From: a virus
Length of the DNA stretch: 64,000 nt
IMG/VR virus record: IMGVR_UViG_3300028581_000011
Coordinates: 62,001 to 126,000 of that record
Direction: 5' to 3' (one strand)
Shown here one piece after another: positions 2,880 to 62,853 of this stretch (the first letter of the stretch is position 1; each line of letters begins with the position of its first letter). The notes under the pieces are model-generated. The model saw only the letters and a list, made by a program, of their open reading frames with translations. It did no database searches and was not told the DNA's origin. The position numbers and the translations under genes were made by a program.

Positions 2880-4913
2880 TCAAGAATACCAGTTGTACGA
2901 AGTTGTCACATGGGCCGCATTGACAGGCAATACGTGCAGTAGCTTACGTTGCGTATCAATGGATCTGAGCTCATAGCCACCCTGCCACAGCTGCTCACCA
3001 ATGCAGATTTCAAGGCTATCATCCGAGACACGAACGTCCGGTACTAGGCAGTCAGCAATCGCGCTCTTGGCTATGACCCAGACACCGCGCGTAGGGTAGT
3101 GAATGGTGTTTCCGTTAGGCGCCTCTGTGCCTAGCTTCGTGCGAAAGCCACGACCTTTGAACCATGGTGAGTTCCTAAACCAGTCTCTTGGATCTTTGAC
3201 GCCATCAGTCTGCAGTATGTGCATTTGCTTATGGCACAGCATACCGAGCGGGGCTTTACCGGGTCTCGCTATTTCCTCGGACAACATCTGTAACCATCTA
3301 CTGCCAGCTGGCACATAACAATCATCATCAAACCAAGCTAGCCAGGGCGTGCCTATTGGCAAGCTAGCGTCTGAGAATGCGCTTCGCATTAACGCGGCTT
3401 TAGAATCACCACCACTGGCCACGTACACCTTGCTGACAGGCAGGGTGTCCAAGTACTTCATAGTGTGTGTAGATACGTTTCGGCACAGTACACGCAGATC
3501 TAACTTGGACGGAGGCAGACTGCTGACAATCGAGTGCAGGCATCTTCGATGCTTATCAATGTGATTGTCGTTGCAATACACGCACACTGTGAGTCGACCA
3601 CCTACAGCAGGATTCTCCAATGCAGTAAGCTGCACATGCTGCGGATGCACGATAGCTGGGCCAGTTTGTTTATCCGACATAATCGACGGTGGTCGAACTA
3701 GCTCTGGTTCTCTGACTATCTCTGGAAGATACGACTCGTTAATGGACATAGACTCGTCAGGAATAAAGAACTCGTCAGGATCCGTTGTCGGCCCCCGCAA
3801 CGCAGCTTGTACGGCTGCATTAAAGACGGCTTCGTCAGCATAAGTATTCTTTGGTTTGCCTATTGGAGGCATGGCGATATCTCCTGCAACTCGTGCCGGC
3901 GGGGGCAGCAGGCCTTGTTCGTAATACCACATGACAGCTTCGATCACATGGTCTGTTGTTATCATGTCCATACAGCGTGGTGTAAAGCCGCCGTATATAG
4001 GCACAGGTTGATGGCATAGGCTGCCATCCATGAGCTTGCCTTCTGGGCTTTTACGTCGATCATTTAGCGGCACCGTGCGCCGCCGCCAGCAGCCTTTACG
4101 GCAGCATGGTAGTAAGCCTTGTGTATGTAGGTACTGGTGCGGCATCTGCACAGCACTTGCTGCAGGCCCAAACTGTTTGAAGTTATCAAACTCGTTGTAG
4201 GCTTCCCACCAAACATCTTCACGACCGCCACCCAACACAACGCAAGGCTTATCAAGAGCTGCAGCGAGATGCATCATGAACGTTATACCGCATACAACGC
4301 CTTCAGCATGATACACATTGACGATCAAGTCTCGCACACTAGTTTGTCCAAGAAGGCACAGCGCGTTATCTAGCTGTGTGTGCATATGTTCGCTTTTGTG
4401 TGTAGCGCCCTCCTGCACAAATCTAAGACCCAGGGGTCGTAACCTATTCACGACCTCCTGATAGCGATGCTGCGGCCAGATCTTCGTGGTCATATCCGAT
4501 TTTCCACCGGGCACGATAACCCAGTAGCGTCCGGAGACCATTGGTGACTTCTTCTCTTCCTCGCTGATATGTATGTCCGGCTTTGGTGCAGTGCACGGTA
4601 CACGTATGCCTGTGAGTCTTGCGAATTCTCTATGAAAGGCTGTAACGAAGTGCTCGTGATAACCACGCCGAGCTCGGCCTAGGCTGCTTCGGTAAGTACC
4701 ACGGCTATTGAAATCTAGTGACACAAGCCCAACAGTGTTACGGGCCATTTTCGTCAGATACGGATTGTTGTGCCACAGCGCCGGATAGTTGGTGTCGACA
4801 TCAATCAGGTACTTGTCGCCATATGTAAGCTTTATATCCCGAACCAGGGCTGTGAGCATAGTCACATCACCGGCAGCCATGCGGAAACGTAGCATGAACT
4901 TTTTCTGGCTCAT
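2880..4913 (-). CDS. Bifunctional glycosyltransferase: GT9-like plus GT2-like
   Basis: This 677-aa protein has two sugar-transfer modules. The first resembles GT9 heptosyltransferases: a VIVPGGKSD-x-TTKIWPQ loop lies near residues 132-148, and a G-x-x-x-x-x-HLAAAL-x-x-P-x-VVLGGG segment near 209-230. A Cys-rich patch (CCRKGC near 270) and a low-complexity linker (about 335-440) follow. The C-terminal module has a strand (LTVCVYCNDN near 441) and an acidic triplet in WLAWFDDDCYV near 525-534, as in GT-A enzymes that bind a nucleotide-sugar and a metal ion. The start overlaps the stop of the next glycosyltransferase (ATGA). Acceptors could be virion proteins or host surface glycans. The sequence does not decide between them. 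Confidence 0.8.
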   Translation of the reverse strand: MSQKKFMLRFRMAAGDVTMLTALVRDIKLTYGDKYLIDVDTNYPALWHNNPYLTKMARNTVGLVSLDFNSRGTYRSSLGRARRGYHEHFVTAFHREFARLTGIRVPCTAPKPDIHISEEEKKSPMVSGRYWVIVPGGKSDMTTKIWPQHRYQEVVNRLRPLGLRFVQEGATHKSEHMHTQLDNALCLLGQTSVRDLIVNVYHAEGVVCGITFMMHLAAALDKPCVVLGGGREDVWWEAYNEFDNFKQFGPAASAVQMPHQYLHTQGLLPCCRKGCWRRRTVPLNDRRKSPEGKLMDGSLCHQPVPIYGGFTPRCMDMITTDHVIEAVMWYYEQGLLPPPARVAGDIAMPPIGKPKNTYADEAVFNAAVQAALRGPTTDPDEFFIPDESMSINESYLPEIVREPELVRPPSIMSDKQTGPAIVHPQHVQLTALENPAVGGRLTVCVYCNDNHIDKHRRCLHSIVSSLPPSKLDLRVLCRNVSTHTMKYLDTLPVSKVYVASGGDSKAALMRSAFSDASLPIGTPWLAWFDDDCYVPAGSRWLQMLSEEIARPGKAPLGMLCHKQMHILQTDGVKDPRDWFRNSPWFKGRGFRTKLGTEAPNGNTIHYPTRGVWVIAKSAIADCLVPDVRVSDDSLEICIGEQLWQGGYELRSIDTQRKLLHVLPVNAAHVTTSYNWYS

Positions 4914-14185: not shown

Positions 14186-15442
14186 CTATATGGTTACTAG
14201 GCCTGGTGTACGTCCTGAGAACTTCAGAAGATTGGCACGCACATACGGGATGTTGTTGAGCTCGTGCCATGGAGACGGGAAGTAGTTGTACTTACGCACC
14301 TCTTGGAACTTCACTGGAGTGCCTATGAAGCGTGCCTGCTCGGCATGAGTCCAATACAGAAACGAATTGGCATTCCAGAAGCTGCAATGTGTCGGATCTT
14401 GAAACGCACCACGACCATCCGTGCTCGGTGTATCGCTTAACAACCAGCCGTTGGGCGCTAGACAGCGATAGATCTCTCGCATGGTGACCAGTGGATCGCG
14501 CAGGTGCTCAAGAGCGTCACTGGCACGGAATACACCAACAGACCCATCAGGGAATGGCCACGGTGCGCAATTAAGGTCACGCTGTATGACACCCGGCGCT
14601 GGAAGTAGATCGATGCCCGTGAATTGCGCAGCCGGCAAGGGACCACTGCACAGGTCAATAGCTTCCAACGAATTGTCCCGACACCAGCGCATAACCAATT
14701 CTGGCAGGTAGTGATCGCACATACCTACCGTGCCCTTCTGTATCCAATCATTCAGCTCCAGCCCTGCTGAGCTATTCTCGTCATGGTGATGCTGTATGTA
14801 CAGACACTTGTCGATGTGGCGTACGTTACCAGACACGTATGTGCGGCATAGAAGGTCTTGATCATCTAGCGCCGGCAGCAGCGGATCGTGTCCCATTATC
14901 GTGTTGTAAAACGAGCTACGCCAAGCTCTGACATGGTTGGGCGCATACCATATGCGCGAGAAAGACGCAGGCGATGGTGGAAACGCAACAGCCTCCGCAA
15001 GCGCACGGCCTTCCCACTCAAACTGACGATACTGCCAGCCATGCTCGCTAGGGTACAACACAGGGCTGCCATCTTGATTGACGTCACACCAGTTCGAATA
15101 GACAAAATCGATGCCAGGTTCAAACGCCGCGTACAGCTCTGCCAGTGCATTTGGTGTCAGCTCATCATCGTGGTCGACTTCAACCAGGAATTCGCCAGAA
15201 GCTAGCTTACAGCAGAACTTCTTTAGCGAGCCTATACCTGTGTTTCCTGCCGCGTCAAAATCAATGCACTTTATGTGTTGACAACCGCTGGTCGCCAACA
15301 AGTTTCGAACATCGATTGCCTTGGCATCTTTGTTAGCAACGACAACCCACTCAAAGTCCTTGAATGTCTGTCGCGACAAGCTCTGCGCTAATCGCCGAAT
15401 ATTGGCAGGATTATGCGTAGGCGTAAAGATACTGAATCGCAT
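14186..15442 (-). CDS. Glycosyltransferase (GT2) fused to SAM-dependent methyltransferase
   Basis: The 418-aa chain starts as a GT-A family 2 enzyme: FSIFTPTHN near residue 3, then FLVEVDHDDELTPNALAELY near residues 84-103 with the acidic metal-binding DHDD. From about residue 255 it becomes a class I methyltransferase of the type 11 kind: IDLCSGP in the SAM-binding position, then FRASDALEHLRDPLVTMREIYRCLAPNGWLL. The fusion suggests a sugar is added and then methylated, capping the glycan. It sits between fibre genes and a radical SAM gene, so I infer virion protein decoration. Confidence 0.8.
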   Translation of the reverse strand: MRFSIFTPTHNPANIRRLAQSLSRQTFKDFEWVVVANKDAKAIDVRNLLATSGCQHIKCIDFDAAGNTGIGSLKKFCCKLASGEFLVEVDHDDELTPNALAELYAAFEPGIDFVYSNWCDVNQDGSPVLYPSEHGWQYRQFEWEGRALAEAVAFPPSPASFSRIWYAPNHVRAWRSSFYNTIMGHDPLLPALDDQDLLCRTYVSGNVRHIDKCLYIQHHHDENSSAGLELNDWIQKGTVGMCDHYLPELVMRWCRDNSLEAIDLCSGPLPAAQFTGIDLLPAPGVIQRDLNCAPWPFPDGSVGVFRASDALEHLRDPLVTMREIYRCLAPNGWLLSDTPSTDGRGAFQDPTHCSFWNANSFLYWTHAEQARFIGTPVKFQEVRKYNYFPSPWHELNNIPYVRANLLKFSGRTPGLVTI

Positions 15443-15469
15443 GATTTAACCCCTCAATGTTGTTGTCGG

Positions 15470-15904
15470 TCAGTCAGGATTGACTGATTCTTCCACACCT
15501 AGCGCAGCCTCAAGACCTGCGATAGTTGCTTCTGTAGCTGCGATAGCTGCAACGTCAGGCGTTGACGCCGCCTGCAGCTTAGCAAGAACAGCAGTGTAGT
15601 AGCTGTGATAGTAGATTTTGGCAGCAAGCTCGGTCACTGTCTGAAGCATAGCCGCGACAGCAGGAAACTTGATAGCCTCGGCGAAGATGTCATGAATAAG
15701 AACCTTCTTGGTCAGCTCGGAGTCCCAGGCAATTTCCTTGCTGGCAAAGTTATACGGCTGGAACATCAGGGACATCCGCTGTGTCAGTGGGTCTCGTTTC
15801 GACACACTTACAAGCATCGCCGTCAGATACAGCTCGTTGAACGTCTTGCTTTCGACCGCAGGCAGTACAGTCGCTTCGGCGCTCGGTATCGGCGTTAGGT
15901 CCAT
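15470..15904 (-). CDS. Hypothetical helical protein, 144 aa
   Basis: I choose ATG 15904 because GGAG lies six bases upstream. ATG 15916 is an alternative in the same frame. The protein is Ala-rich and helical, without cysteine. It contains a YYHSYYTAVLAKLQAA helix and an Ala/Thr-rich C-terminus. It overlaps the end of the radical SAM gene by 155 bases in another frame, which is unusual. It could be a partner or scaffold of that enzyme or an unrelated virion protein. Confidence 0.6.
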   Translation of the reverse strand: MDLTPIPSAEATVLPAVESKTFNELYLTAMLVSVSKRDPLTQRMSLMFQPYNFASKEIAWDSELTKKVLIHDIFAEAIKFPAVAAMLQTVTELAAKIYYHSYYTAVLAKLQAASTPDVAAIAATEATIAGLEAALGVEESVNPD

Positions 15905-17063
15905 TAGTGGCTCCATTCTTGTTTCTAGGCTTACGTTTAGGCACGTCACGATTTGGTCTTGAATCTAGGCTTGCTTGCCACCAGTTAGGATTCAACTCAC
16001 GAAGCTGTAGATCAATCCAATGTACAATCTTAGCCGACTCTTGCTTGAATCGACAGTATACAGGGTTGGGCTTTGACATGTCGCCCGTAGTCTTATAGTT
16101 GATATGATAGCAGCCGGAATCGCAACTACGTACAGCAACGCAGCCGGCACACATGGCTGGGCGTTCTAGGCTTACGACTTTGTGTAATCCACACTTTGCA
16201 ATGTTACCATAGCCTCTATCTTTGTAATCGAGTATCTCTCTTAGCGTTCCACGGCAGAACGGCCCATCAGCCGGTTCGCTGCTAAACCGATGACAAAGAT
16301 AGACATTGCCTTCGCAAGATACACAAGCCATGTTACGGCCAGCGCCGCAACCCATGCGGTGTATAAAATCATGCTGTTTTGACTTGAATGTAGCGCAAGC
16401 CCTATCAATCCAGAACAGGCGAAAGCCCTTACCGGTCTTTTTGAAGTCCTCTACAAACTCAATGCCCAGCTGCCACAGCTGTTGACAGAATATCTCTATG
16501 TTTTCAGCTGACCAGTCCGGATAGTAGTCGGGCTGTGGCGACATGCCTTTGACAAAGCCCAAGGACTGAAAGTAGTGCATAGACTCGATAATGTACTTGG
16601 CAGCCTGCGGTGCGATCGTACTGCGACGAGTCTTGCCATAGTCTTTCCACAACAGGGTGGCTTTGTTGTAGCGTTCTAGGGCTTTGACTCCTCGCCCATC
16701 TGCCACGGCAGCAGGACAGCCGTCCACAGACCGCTGCACACTCAGCTTATTACGTTTGCAGTATTCGAAGATCTCTACGTCGTCAGATAGGCCGTTACTC
16801 ATAACAGAAAAATGAGTTCCAGCCCCTCTTGATTTCAATGTGTCGACAAGATACTTAAGACTGTCAAACGCCAGCAAAGGTTCCCCGCCGTACAGCTGCA
16901 ACTTACCTAGACGACCGCGCATGGTTATCTCGATCACGTCGTCCAACACAGCCTTCGACATGTCTACATTGGTTTTATGCTGTCCGAGATAGCAATAAGG
17001 GCAGTCAAGATTGCATCGCCTGGTGAGCTCGATGTCTAGTGAACGAATGCCGGAAAAACCCAT
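15750..17063 (-). CDS. Radical SAM enzyme with SPASM-type C-terminal cluster domain
   Basis: This 437-aa protein has the radical SAM motif CNLDCPYC (C17, C21, C24) for a 4Fe-4S cluster, then GGEP near residue 59, which contacts SAM. From about residue 239 come cysteines at 239, 247, 250, 257, 270, 291, 305, 308, 314, 318 and 337, spaced as in SPASM domains of peptide- and protein-modifying enzymes (anSME, sactisynthases, PqqE). A basic, non-conserved-looking tail after 365 runs over the next gene. It lies 48 bases downstream of a Cys-rich collagen-like gene, with a palindrome between them. Substrate unknown. I infer that it modifies a virion protein. Confidence 0.85.
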   Translation of the reverse strand: MGFSGIRSLDIELTRRCNLDCPYCYLGQHKTNVDMSKAVLDDVIEITMRGRLGKLQLYGGEPLLAFDSLKYLVDTLKSRGAGTHFSVMSNGLSDDVEIFEYCKRNKLSVQRSVDGCPAAVADGRGVKALERYNKATLLWKDYGKTRRSTIAPQAAKYIIESMHYFQSLGFVKGMSPQPDYYPDWSAENIEIFCQQLWQLGIEFVEDFKKTGKGFRLFWIDRACATFKSKQHDFIHRMGCGAGRNMACVSCEGNVYLCHRFSSEPADGPFCRGTLREILDYKDRGYGNIAKCGLHKVVSLERPAMCAGCVAVRSCDSGCYHINYKTTGDMSKPNPVYCRFKQESAKIVHWIDLQLRELNPNWWQASLDSRPNRDVPKRKPRNKNGATNGPNADTERRSDCTACGRKQDVQRAVSDGDACKCVETRPTDTADVPDVPAV

Positions 17064-17074
17064 AAAACCCCTCC

Positions 17075-17100
17075 AGATTTAATTAGCGCTAATTACATCT
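17075..17100. promoter_or_regulatory. 26-bp palindrome, copy 1 (one mismatch)
   Basis: Core TAATTAGCGCTAATTA with near-complete flanking symmetry (AGAT...ATCT, mismatch at 17079/17096). It lies in the 48-base gap just before the radical SAM start. Other copies are at 28212, 42106 and 56846. There is no loop or T-run, so it looks like an operator for a dimeric protein rather than a terminator. Confidence 0.75.
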
Positions 17101-17111
17101 CCGCCGGGTCA

Positions 17112-18821
17112 CTAGTCGTCTGGATCGCAAGTGCACGCAGGATCCCTGCCGCAGCCTTCATCCTCAGGACATGGTATGTCTGCACAGTCGGGATCACAAC
17201 CCTCACATGTGCAGTCTACGCAATTAGGCTCACAGCCTGTCTGTTCGCACACGCAATCAGTACAGTTAGGCTCACATTCCTCGCAATGGCAATCTTCCGG
17301 AGATCCGCATTCGTCACCATCGCAGTCACAGTTACAGTCACCAGTACTGCAATTAGGCGAGCAGCTGCCGCCAGATTCATTGCTACAATCAGCTGCGGCG
17401 CAGTTAGGCCAACAGGCCTCCTCGTGATCGCAGTCAACCGGATCGTCTTCAGGACAGCCATCATCTGTGTCACACTGGCACGTAGGGTCAGATCCACAGT
17501 GCTGAAATGTTTGAGAGATCTCGGTAACAGAAATGCTTGCACTCCATGAATAGCGTGCAGCAGCCAAACCCTGGCACCATATCGTCAGATACGGCCCTTC
17601 TTCAGGAGTTGCTGAAGGATTAACCGGTGAGACAGTTACCTCCATCCCAAGACTTGCAACAGAGCTATCATCGGTGAACAATACTTCGTTAGTAGGCGAG
17701 CCAACAAGCTCAGCCACACCGTCACTAGCCATCTTAACCACGCCACGCATTTCCCATACGGTTGAGTATCGACTATAGTCGATAGCACCAGCGTGAATTA
17801 CAAAAGCCCACAGCTTGTCAGCCGTCATCTGTAGTCTACTACCGTTTAGGGTTATTTCTGTCCAGTTATCATCTTCCGTCTGTGCATAGCCTACGGCTGT
17901 AAAGCGACGCACATACGGACCAATTCCCTGAGCAACTGAGGCAAAAATATCGTTTTTTGTGAATAACCCTGATGTTATCCCGTACGGTGCAGTGACATTA
18001 TTGGTATAGCCGGAGACTGCAGCGTAGCGGGCCTCGCCGGCTATACTGTTAGCAAAGCCGCCCAAAACAGCACTGTAATCGCCTAGGTTTAAGTTGCTGA
18101 CGCCGCCCAGGATAGCCGCATTTTCACCACTTAAGATATTTGATTGGCCTCCGAGAATTGCAGCACTTGTTCCAGTGTTCTCGTTATAATATCCGCCCAG
18201 CAGTGCCGAATATTCGCCGCGAGCTCTTTGATTGTCGTTACCGCTTAGAAGTTGCAGATCTACTGATCGATGACCTAGATTTGTGGTTCCGCCTGTTCTA
18301 ATGCTGCCTGTGCCGTTGGGGGTTAAGATTATGTCTTTGTTGCCCGTTGTAGTGACAATAGCGTATCCGGCTGTATTCAAGTTAGCCGTCAACGTGCTTG
18401 TCACGCCGCCTTGCGGTCCTTGTGCGCCCTGCGCACCTTGTGCGCCCTGCGCACCTTGTGCGCCGTTATTTCCCTGATTGCCTTTAAGACCCTGCACACC
18501 CTGTGTACCTTGCGTACCTTGGCTGCCCGCAGCCCCGGTAGCGCCCTGGACGCCTTGTGTGCCTGCGCCAGTGGCCCCTTGAGCCCCTTGGCTGCCTTGA
18601 GCGCCCTGTACACCTTGTGTGCCTTGAACACCCTGACTTCCAGCAGCACCACCTGCACCCTGAGCCCCCTGCGGACCTTGCGTACCTTCGCCACCGCCAC
18701 CGGACTCTAGTGCGTCAGCAATGGCTATGAAGTTGTCATTCAACGCCGAGCCGGCAGCGCCAGTGGGCGTTGGCGAGACAATGAGCAGTCCTTTGTAGTA
18801 TTGCAGCGTCGGTGTAGACAT
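17112..18821 (-). CDS. Collagen-like fibre with YadA-like repeats and a Cys-rich tail
   Basis: 569 aa. Residues 1-38 form a short attachment segment. About 40-140 is a long Gly-x-y tract (GTQGPQGAQGAGGAAG and similar). About 205-290 carries repeats such as SALLGGYYN, AAILGGQSN, AAILGGVSN and SAVLGGFAN, as in YadA-type left-handed beta rolls. A beta domain follows. The last 130 residues hold about 30 cysteines with Asp, Glu, Pro and Asn, including ECEPNCTDCVCEQTGCEPNC. The tail is like a metallothionein or a heavily cross-linked cap. The gene follows a CACGGAGG ribosome site and precedes the radical SAM gene. Confidence 0.8.
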   Translation of the reverse strand: MSTPTLQYYKGLLIVSPTPTGAAGSALNDNFIAIADALESGGGGEGTQGPQGAQGAGGAAGSQGVQGTQGVQGAQGSQGAQGATGAGTQGVQGATGAAGSQGTQGTQGVQGLKGNQGNNGAQGAQGAQGAQGAQGPQGGVTSTLTANLNTAGYAIVTTTGNKDIILTPNGTGSIRTGGTTNLGHRSVDLQLLSGNDNQRARGEYSALLGGYYNENTGTSAAILGGQSNILSGENAAILGGVSNLNLGDYSAVLGGFANSIAGEARYAAVSGYTNNVTAPYGITSGLFTKNDIFASVAQGIGPYVRRFTAVGYAQTEDDNWTEITLNGSRLQMTADKLWAFVIHAGAIDYSRYSTVWEMRGVVKMASDGVAELVGSPTNEVLFTDDSSVASLGMEVTVSPVNPSATPEEGPYLTIWCQGLAAARYSWSASISVTEISQTFQHCGSDPTCQCDTDDGCPEDDPVDCDHEEACWPNCAAADCSNESGGSCSPNCSTGDCNCDCDGDECGSPEDCHCEECEPNCTDCVCEQTGCEPNCVDCTCEGCDPDCADIPCPEDEGCGRDPACTCDPDD

Positions 18822-61329: not shown

Positions 61330-62853
61330 TTACGCGACAACCTTATTTTGCAGGACTACACATTCAAGTGTCAACGGTAATAGTTCTTCGGGCGTAGCCA
61401 TACTGGCCAGGGCAGACAACTGATACAGGGCATACTGCTCTGCAATCTTCTGCGCCAACTCTCCACATGCCCCTGATTTGATCAACGTACTTTTGGAGCG
61501 CAAACGTGTTTCTGCGTCCTTATACAAGGCAGCTCGTTGCGCACGATCTACGATTGAAGACAGCTCAAGCGAATGATCTCGGGTGAACTTATCAGCCCAG
61601 CTGCGCCGTTGTGCTGAGACCGGACCAACAGTAACGGCAAACGCACTTGAGGCAATCTTCGTGTAAACCACTGGATCCGAAGCCAGTCGGCCAAAAACAC
61701 CAGGCAGTTCGTCTTCCGACAGCGATAAAAGCTGTGCTGTCTTTTCACGGTTATCTCCGGTTAACAACCGGACAAAATCGCGGAACGGCAAAAGTACTCT
61801 CCGGCTAGCCATGGCTGCTAGCTTCAAGTTTACCTCACCGGTATCCAGCGGTCCCAATTCTCGAATCTCTATCGGGCGCTGCTTACTCTCAGCTAGACCC
61901 AGGGCAAGAGCCTTGTGTCGTTCCGTCGTGTTTCCTTCCATAGCCGTCTCAAGCTGCGCCAGTTTGTGCAGCAAGACAGCCTGCTTCTGCGATGCCTTCT
62001 GATCGTTAAGGCGCAGTATTGTTCCGTAGCCGTTCTGATTGGCGTATATCTCGGCCAGTTCGGCACCACCGATAACATGACCAGCGCTGGCTGCCTTTGT
62101 CATGTAGTCGGCTTTAGCACCCCAGGCACTAGGATCGGCAGGACGCCCGACCTTGGATATATCGAACCATCCGGGATTGGGATTGTCCACAAATTGCTGC
62201 AGACCGTCCCATGCCAATTTGGTGAGTCCGTCACGGCAGCCAAACATACGTCGGCCAGTTTCCGGACTGATGCACGTATCTTCAGTGCAGTACTCACTTC
62301 GATTGGCTGCCTTGTTATGGCAGTTTTGGCAGACATCGTAGTCGATTGTAGTGGCCATGCTCCACGGCAGGGCGTCACCACGGTTCAAGGCATGCAGGTC
62401 GTCGTCAGGCATCACAAGACCGCCGTTACGTTCGGCAGCTTCCTTGGTGCCATTGCCGACAACTAGCAGCTCAATCCTGCGCATTGGCTCGTTGTATGCG
62501 GATGCAGCAACCTTGCCATAGCTCTTGTCAGGATCTTTGTTTTTGTGATTTCGGTAGTAACGGGCCTTAGTAACAAAGCGACCATGATGCTCACGGCAAT
62601 CAGCTTCCTTGAAGCCATCGCCATTGCGATTAGATCCAAAGCCCTCGGTGGCACAGACAGCGATCAAATGTATAGGAATGTCGCCACGGGCAATCTTGAC
62701 GTTCTCAAGTGCCTTCGTCAGGGCATGATCAGCGCGCTTTAAGAATACGGCGCGGTCATGATTGGCAAGGCCACCGCTGGCCATCTTTACCAGTTGAGCG
62801 GGTTCTTCCGTCAACCTATCCCATGAGCCTACGCCTACAATTTTGTGCATCAT
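61330..62853 (-). CDS. Prohead-protease-like protein with Cys-rich insertion, 507 aa
   Basis: The N-terminal 170 residues fit a phage prohead protease: IHLIAVCATEGFGSNRNGDG, RYYRNHKNKDPDKSYGKVAA (candidate catalytic His) and ALPWSMATTIDYDVC (candidate Ser). After that comes CQNCHNKAANRSEYCTEDTC, a four-Cys metal-like cluster, and then about 300 extra helical residues (DKFTRDHSLELSSIVDRAQR). Such proteases cut the scaffold and capsid to allow expansion. The catalytic residues are tentative. Confidence 0.6.
   Translation of the reverse strand: MMHKIVGVGSWDRLTEEPAQLVKMASGGLANHDRAVFLKRADHALTKALENVKIARGDIPIHLIAVCATEGFGSNRNGDGFKEADCREHHGRFVTKARYYRNHKNKDPDKSYGKVAASAYNEPMRRIELLVVGNGTKEAAERNGGLVMPDDDLHALNRGDALPWSMATTIDYDVCQNCHNKAANRSEYCTEDTCISPETGRRMFGCRDGLTKLAWDGLQQFVDNPNPGWFDISKVGRPADPSAWGAKADYMTKAASAGHVIGGAELAEIYANQNGYGTILRLNDQKASQKQAVLLHKLAQLETAMEGNTTERHKALALGLAESKQRPIEIRELGPLDTGEVNLKLAAMASRRVLLPFRDFVRLLTGDNREKTAQLLSLSEDELPGVFGRLASDPVVYTKIASSAFAVTVGPVSAQRRSWADKFTRDHSLELSSIVDRAQRAALYKDAETRLRSKSTLIKSGACGELAQKIAEQYALYQLSALASMATPEELLPLTLECVVLQNKVVA

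Follow-up and report, generated by a model that had tools for sequence, protein, structure and literature searches.

A collagen-like phage fibre with a Cys-rich tail and its neighbouring SPASM radical SAM enzyme: a candidate substrate and maturase

Fibre and radical SAM genes of the window

The window analysed here is a 64,000-nucleotide stretch of viral DNA (positions 62,001 to 126,000 of IMG/VR record IMGVR_UViG_3300028581_000011), and we are concerned with two adjacent genes on its minus strand, one encoding a collagen-like fibre with a Cys-rich C-terminal tail and the other a SPASM-type radical S-adenosylmethionine (SAM) enzyme, the proposed substrate and its proposed modifier. The minus-strand gene order is fibre, radical SAM gene, a small open reading frame (ORF) and a fusion of a GT2-type glycosyltransferase (GT) with a methyltransferase. 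The source record has 185,248 bases and, as judged by Pfam PF04055, only one radical SAM gene.

The fibre (17112-18821, minus strand) is 569 residues long. PHROG tail-fibre profiles matched its collagen-like part, a Gly-x-x repeat at residues 43-139 (18405-18695, minus strand) that was also recognized by Pfam PF01391 (Collagen; E-value of 1e-11 for the fibre) and by the NCBIfam collagen-like adhesin model. A beta-roll-like segment at residues 216-276 (17994-18176, minus strand) gave a weak, sub-cut-off match to Pfam LbR_Ice_bind. An earlier first-pass annotation of this DNA had described the fibre as ending in about 30 Cys, and the count agrees: 30 of its 31 Cys fall within the 124 residues from 442 to 565 (17127-17498, minus strand). 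This tail is rich in Asp and Glu: the protein's final 139 residues include 24 and 15 of them, respectively. Its Cys spacings are mixed (1, 2, 3, 4, 5 and 7), a single repeat unit is not evident, and five motifs have the form C-x-P-[ND]-C (CWPNC, CSPNC, CEPNC twice and CDPDC). The two CEPNC copies use different synonymous codons, which argues for selection on the protein and not for a fresh duplication of DNA. A tblastn search with the Cys tail against named phages returned no match, and a DNA pattern for CEPNC gave seven matches, none of them in a coding frame. N-terminal YPF motifs hinted at a family of paralogous fibres in the window, but phmmer gave it no support.

The radical SAM gene (15750-17063, minus strand; 437 residues) begins 48 bases downstream of the fibre gene, so that its earlier placement directly after the fibre stands. 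The enzyme carries the radical SAM motif CNLDCPYC at residues 17-24 (16992-17015, minus strand), invariant in the phage alignments, and scores 45.3 bits against PF04055 (Radical_SAM; cut-off 29.5). Its SPASM region at residues 239-337 (16053-16349, minus strand) contains seven Cys (C239, C257, C305, C308, C314, C318 and C337), all of which align with those of CteB and of phage relatives; none of the seven varied in the first phage alignment, and they were conserved at 90% or more in a set of 63 relatives. The AlphaFold model is of good quality over the core, with a mean predicted local distance difference test score of 80 and most core blocks above 85. Only seven residues precede the radical SAM core (residue 8 onwards), which leaves no space for an N-terminal peptide-recognition domain, and the pair thereby falls outside the definition of a ribosomally synthesized and post-translationally modified peptide (RiPP) system, whose enzyme would carry such a recognition element. 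The last approximately 65 residues contain CxxC-like Cys of the enzyme's own; a function for this Cys-rich end is doubtful because it is predicted to be disordered and is mostly overprinted by the next ORF. Elsewhere, three viral enzymes (L023:8001-9275, L031:2347-3579 and L053:4955-6211) bear a Cys-repeat piece at their own N- or C-terminus.

Viral radical SAM genes lie beside Cys-rich partners

Generic radical SAM/SPASM motifs, run against 2.9 million viral contigs, matched at least 77 loci. To count as a Cys-rich partner, an ORF had to contain 10 or more Cys per 50 residues and to lie no more than 3 kb from the enzyme gene in the same orientation; at least 55 of the loci listed had one. After removal of near-duplicates, 46 of 66 viral loci among the matches listed were paired, compared to 3 of 80 bacterial or archaeal relatives (p ~2e-18), and one of those three, L226, falls inside a viral enzyme clade of the tree. 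As an internal control, flanks of 8 kb were searched, and just one additional locus had its nearest Cys-rich ORF farther away than 3 kb. As a second control, 80 phage loci of the GT-methyltransferase, amounting to 1.06 Mb, held no Cys-rich ORF on the same strand and one spurious ORF on the opposite strand (Fisher p ~1e-22, viral loci versus control loci). In the enzyme tree, paired enzymes occur in several lineages, and well-supported branches force at least seven changes. The pairing is specific and is repeated in many unrelated phages. Separately, a contig of a Bathyarchaeota metagenome genome (L262:3452-5912) has three consecutive Cys-repeat ORFs before a radical SAM gene, with kinship to the viral L031.

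The association also held when the search began from the Cys repeats. A DNA pattern for CTCNCNY repeats, CTCNCNYCTCNCNY, matched 27 viral stretches; a radical SAM ORF lay inside the fetched stretch in 21, and the remaining six were short stretches, all on records with 3-11 radical SAM matches, so that 27 of 27 viral contigs bearing the pattern encode radical SAM enzymes, frequently 8-11 of them. A second pattern, CQxxCExxCQxxCE, found 51 Cys-repeat stretches, of which 18 themselves include a radical SAM ORF and a further 14 lie on records with a match over the Pfam cut-off, a total of at least 32 of 51; the remainder are mostly short fragments or low-complexity repeats. The phages with CTCNCNY fibres (L180-L206) often have two to four tandem radical SAM genes just upstream, and six whole records hold 3-11.

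The position of the Cys block follows that of the enzyme gene. Partners encoded upstream of the enzyme gene all carry the block at the C-terminus (19/19), and those encoded downstream carry it at the N-terminus in 9 of 21 cases (p 0.0014). The block thus faces the enzyme gene, as if the two often travel as one cassette. A C-terminal Cys tail with the enzyme directly downstream, as in the window, was seen in L023 (a 959-residue structural-type protein, 51 bp before the enzyme), L034 (58 bp) and L064 (12 bp). In L033 and L038 the Cys block directly precedes a Peptidase_S74 chaperone of tail fibres. S74 domains cleave themselves off at their first Ser, so the mature protein would end in the Cys block, like the window fibre. 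In L057 a Hoc-like Ig-domain protein carries the block at its N-terminus, in L099 the block occurs together with RCC1 repeats, and further partners of viral radical SAM genes match tail families. The block is thus a domain shared by different proteins of virion type.

Cys-repeat proteins in cultured phages

Similar arrangements are present in cultured phages. In Erwinia phages Asesino and Machina and in Salmonella phage SPN3US, two radical SAM genes are accompanied by genes for two small CXXX-repeat proteins and for a third, short one, all among virion structural genes. In the two small proteins, all 41 Cys columns are invariant among the three phages, compared to 117 of 216 other ungapped columns, and 27 of the 41 show synonymous codon changes. 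In the SPN3US annotation (NC_027402) both CXXX-repeat genes (L021:3097-3489 and 3500-3904) are absent, and the annotated ORF gp100 overlaps the second of them in the wrong frame.

Campylobacter phage CPt10 gave 11 radical SAM matches. Its gp145 (L359:42087-43691; 534 residues) contains CTCDCNYCTCNCNY repeats and lies in a tail-gene region, and its gp169 (L359:20921-21346) is a CxxC-repeat protein approximately 0.8 kb before another radical SAM gene. The seven-residue CTCDCNY repeats of gp145 resemble those of marine phages; the annotation of the gp145 and gp169 repeats goes no further than "repeat region x" and insect antifreeze/TNFR-like hits.

Kinship and probable chemistry of the enzyme

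The top PDB match of the window enzyme, both by sequence and by fold (3e-18), was CteB (5wgg), the thioether-forming enzyme of SCIFF peptides, and a profile of the phage enzymes matched CteB at 4e-80 versus 1e-35 for an anaerobic sulfatase maturase. CteB resembles the window enzyme in fold and SPASM pattern, and the substrate in which it forms thioethers is, like the window fibre, Cys-rich. It differs in having approximately 90 residues before the core and a small dedicated peptide as substrate, whereas the window enzyme starts at the core and its partner is the 569-residue fibre, not a precursor with six Cys in 45 residues. Among NCBIfam models the ranking was PapB, nif11, QhpD and SCIFF maturases, all below their cut-offs (SCIFF maturase TIGR03974, 67.6 versus 425 bits). 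The top model, PapB (NF047865), matched over the whole core. The substrate of QhpD is a protein and not just a small peptide. QhpD (TIGR03906) makes Cys-Asp/Glu thioethers within that protein; the window enzyme scores far below its cut-off and has an unrelated partner. In the CXXX-repeat target family TIGR04115, a radical SAM gene adjoins a Cys-repeat protein as it does in the window, but the family as named by NCBI has no viral fibre role and the window enzyme scores only 51.8 (cut-off 350). The phage enzyme of L037 passes that cut-off with 388.5 bits, and a radical SAM enzyme with a Cys-repeat target is therefore already a known kind. By these profile scores, the window enzyme falls outside every curated family.

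PapB links Cys to Asp or Glu and accepts Cys-Xn-Asp with n = 0-6 (PMC9413430). The acidic tail of the window fibre would, by analogy, allow PapB-type Cys-Xn-Asp links. The first-pass annotation had named thioether, C-C or formylglycine modification as products of such enzymes; kinship to CteB and PapB suggests thioether formation as the leading fit for this enzyme class, and formylglycine is disfavoured, because the YPCD of the sulfatase maturases 4k36 and 4k37, whose Asp we take to be catalytic, reads YLCH in the window enzyme. This position, directly after a SPASM Cys, is His in the window enzyme and Asp in 0 of 16 aligned phage enzymes.

Interpretation and alternative explanations

The first-pass annotation had ventured that the enzyme acts on the fibre tail, a link that comparative genomics now strongly supports. 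We consider it likely that the two genes form an enzyme-substrate pair in which the enzyme is a phage maturase of the Cys tail. The genomic association makes it very probable that the tail is modified in some way; given modification, we lean towards a product consisting mainly of thioether cross-links, as the enzyme's kinship would suggest. In the proposed mechanism, a phage-encoded SPASM maturase would act on the Cys-rich C-terminal fibre tail. If the enzyme works like CteB, PapB and QhpD, it would split SAM to generate a 5'-deoxyadenosyl radical, this radical would abstract a hydrogen from an amino acid close to one of the tail Cys, and an auxiliary iron-sulfur cluster would handle the Cys thiolate while the S-C thioether forms. 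Repetition of the reaction along the tail could produce a compact, redox-stable and protease-resistant fibre tip on the virion. The chances seem about even that such a tip serves host recognition or stability.

Several observations weigh against this interpretation. Twenty of the 66 viral loci among the matches listed lack a Cys-rich partner within 3 kb, some of these loci being truncated. In the tree the window enzyme sits on a long branch whose position is uncertain, and no close relative of the window pair came out of single-sequence IMG/VR searches with the enzyme and with a baseplate protein. A check proposed earlier, whether the two genes are kept together in other phages, is thus borne out by the 46 paired loci and not by orthologues of these two genes, and conservation therefore holds for the kind of pair. 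The enzyme also lies far under every curated maturase cut-off, including that of PapB (133.6 versus 340 bits). Unlike the PapB system, the window has no leader-peptide precursor. CX3D-like spacings in the fibre tail show no significant excess, with 12 C-x3-[DE] versus 9.3 expected (p 0.14). The phage repeats CTCNCNY and SGCSGC have no acidic acceptors, and chemistry may therefore differ between branches.

Among the alternatives, a different radical reaction on the tail (formylglycine at C-x-P, a Cys-alpha sactionine, a C-C cyclophane, epimerisation or hydroxylation) is unlikely, though it would be the foremost of them. The substrate motif of sulfatase maturases begins with C-x-P. The five C-x-P-[ND]-C motifs of the fibre tail recall it, the enzyme fold also matches anaerobic sulfatase-maturating enzymes, and related SPASM enzymes perform all of these reactions. 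Most phage Cys repeats, however, are without Pro, the maturase Asp is replaced as described above, and the nearest enzymes by profile and by fold are thioether formers. The tail might instead be unmodified, holding disulfides, metal or an iron-sulfur cluster while the radical SAM gene has a different task, and acidic Cys-rich sequences do often bind metal; the mixed Cys spacings with no single repeat would also suit such a tail. We regard this as improbable, since the pairing is specific and reciprocal across diverse phages and phage proteins mature in a reducing cytoplasm. The two genes could also be coincidental neighbours in a variable host-recognition island, as pelagimyophages are reported to have radical SAM cassettes in their hypervariable host recognition cluster (PMC7029224). 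Coincidence is nevertheless highly improbable in view of the strong contrast with bacterial radical SAM loci and of the 80 loci of the GT-methyltransferase, another variable phage gene, which have no such Cys-rich partner.

Beyond the window, we think it rather more probable than its opposite that phages infecting a wide range of hosts use between one and approximately ten dedicated radical SAM enzymes to mature the Cys-repeat domains in their fibres and other virion proteins. With similar confidence, these domains would form cross-linked adhesin tips or surfaces, the proteins would make up a general class that is produced ribosomally and modified by radical chemistry, and this would explain the abundance of radical SAM genes in some phages.

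Relation to earlier work

The same kinds of genes have been reported, unexplained, in three earlier papers. Campylobacter phages CP220 and CPt10 have 11-12 radical SAM genes (PMC2853527); a huge virus has 15 radical SAM enzymes, and the same paper separately remarks that tail spikes are Cys-rich (PMC9723712); and the pelagimyophage host recognition islands contain the radical SAM cassettes already mentioned. In none of the three are Cys-rich virion proteins proposed as substrates of these enzymes. A search of the open-access literature (subscription journals and preprints aside) found no paper linking radical SAM enzymes to Cys-rich phage fibres, in line with the first-pass view that no such system was known as described. 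Radical SAM maturation directed at viral fibres and other virion-type proteins thus appears to be undescribed in that literature. If true, it would mean radical SAM post-translational modification of virion structural proteins in marine, gut and jumbo phages, and it offers an answer to the question, raised in 2010, of why Campylobacter phages hold so many radical SAM genes (PMC2853527). The proposed modification is directly testable in cultured phages, and any stitching of fibre tips could matter for how hosts are recognized, for the stability of virions and for designing stable binding scaffolds.

Neighbouring genes

The small ORF on the 3' side of the radical SAM gene (~15470-15904, minus strand) has no family match and overlaps the 3' end of that gene by 155 nt (15750-15904) in another frame; it is not shown to be a member of the enzyme-fibre unit. 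The fusion of GT2 with a methyltransferase (14186-15442, minus strand) had been described as following the enzyme; the fusion itself is confirmed, with the small ORF lying in between. It was considered as part of the unit and rejected, because 80 of its relatives have no radical SAM neighbour, and it is a common phage gene unlinked to the enzyme-fibre pair. The fusion has more than 460 relatives in viral contigs, with up to 55% identity, and one in cyanophage S-CRM01 with 37% identity. Outside the window, ORFs resembling those of the dTDP-rhamnose pathway (RmlA, RmlB and RmlD types) were recognized by eye at G000:C1:172402-174374 and 153879-154811.

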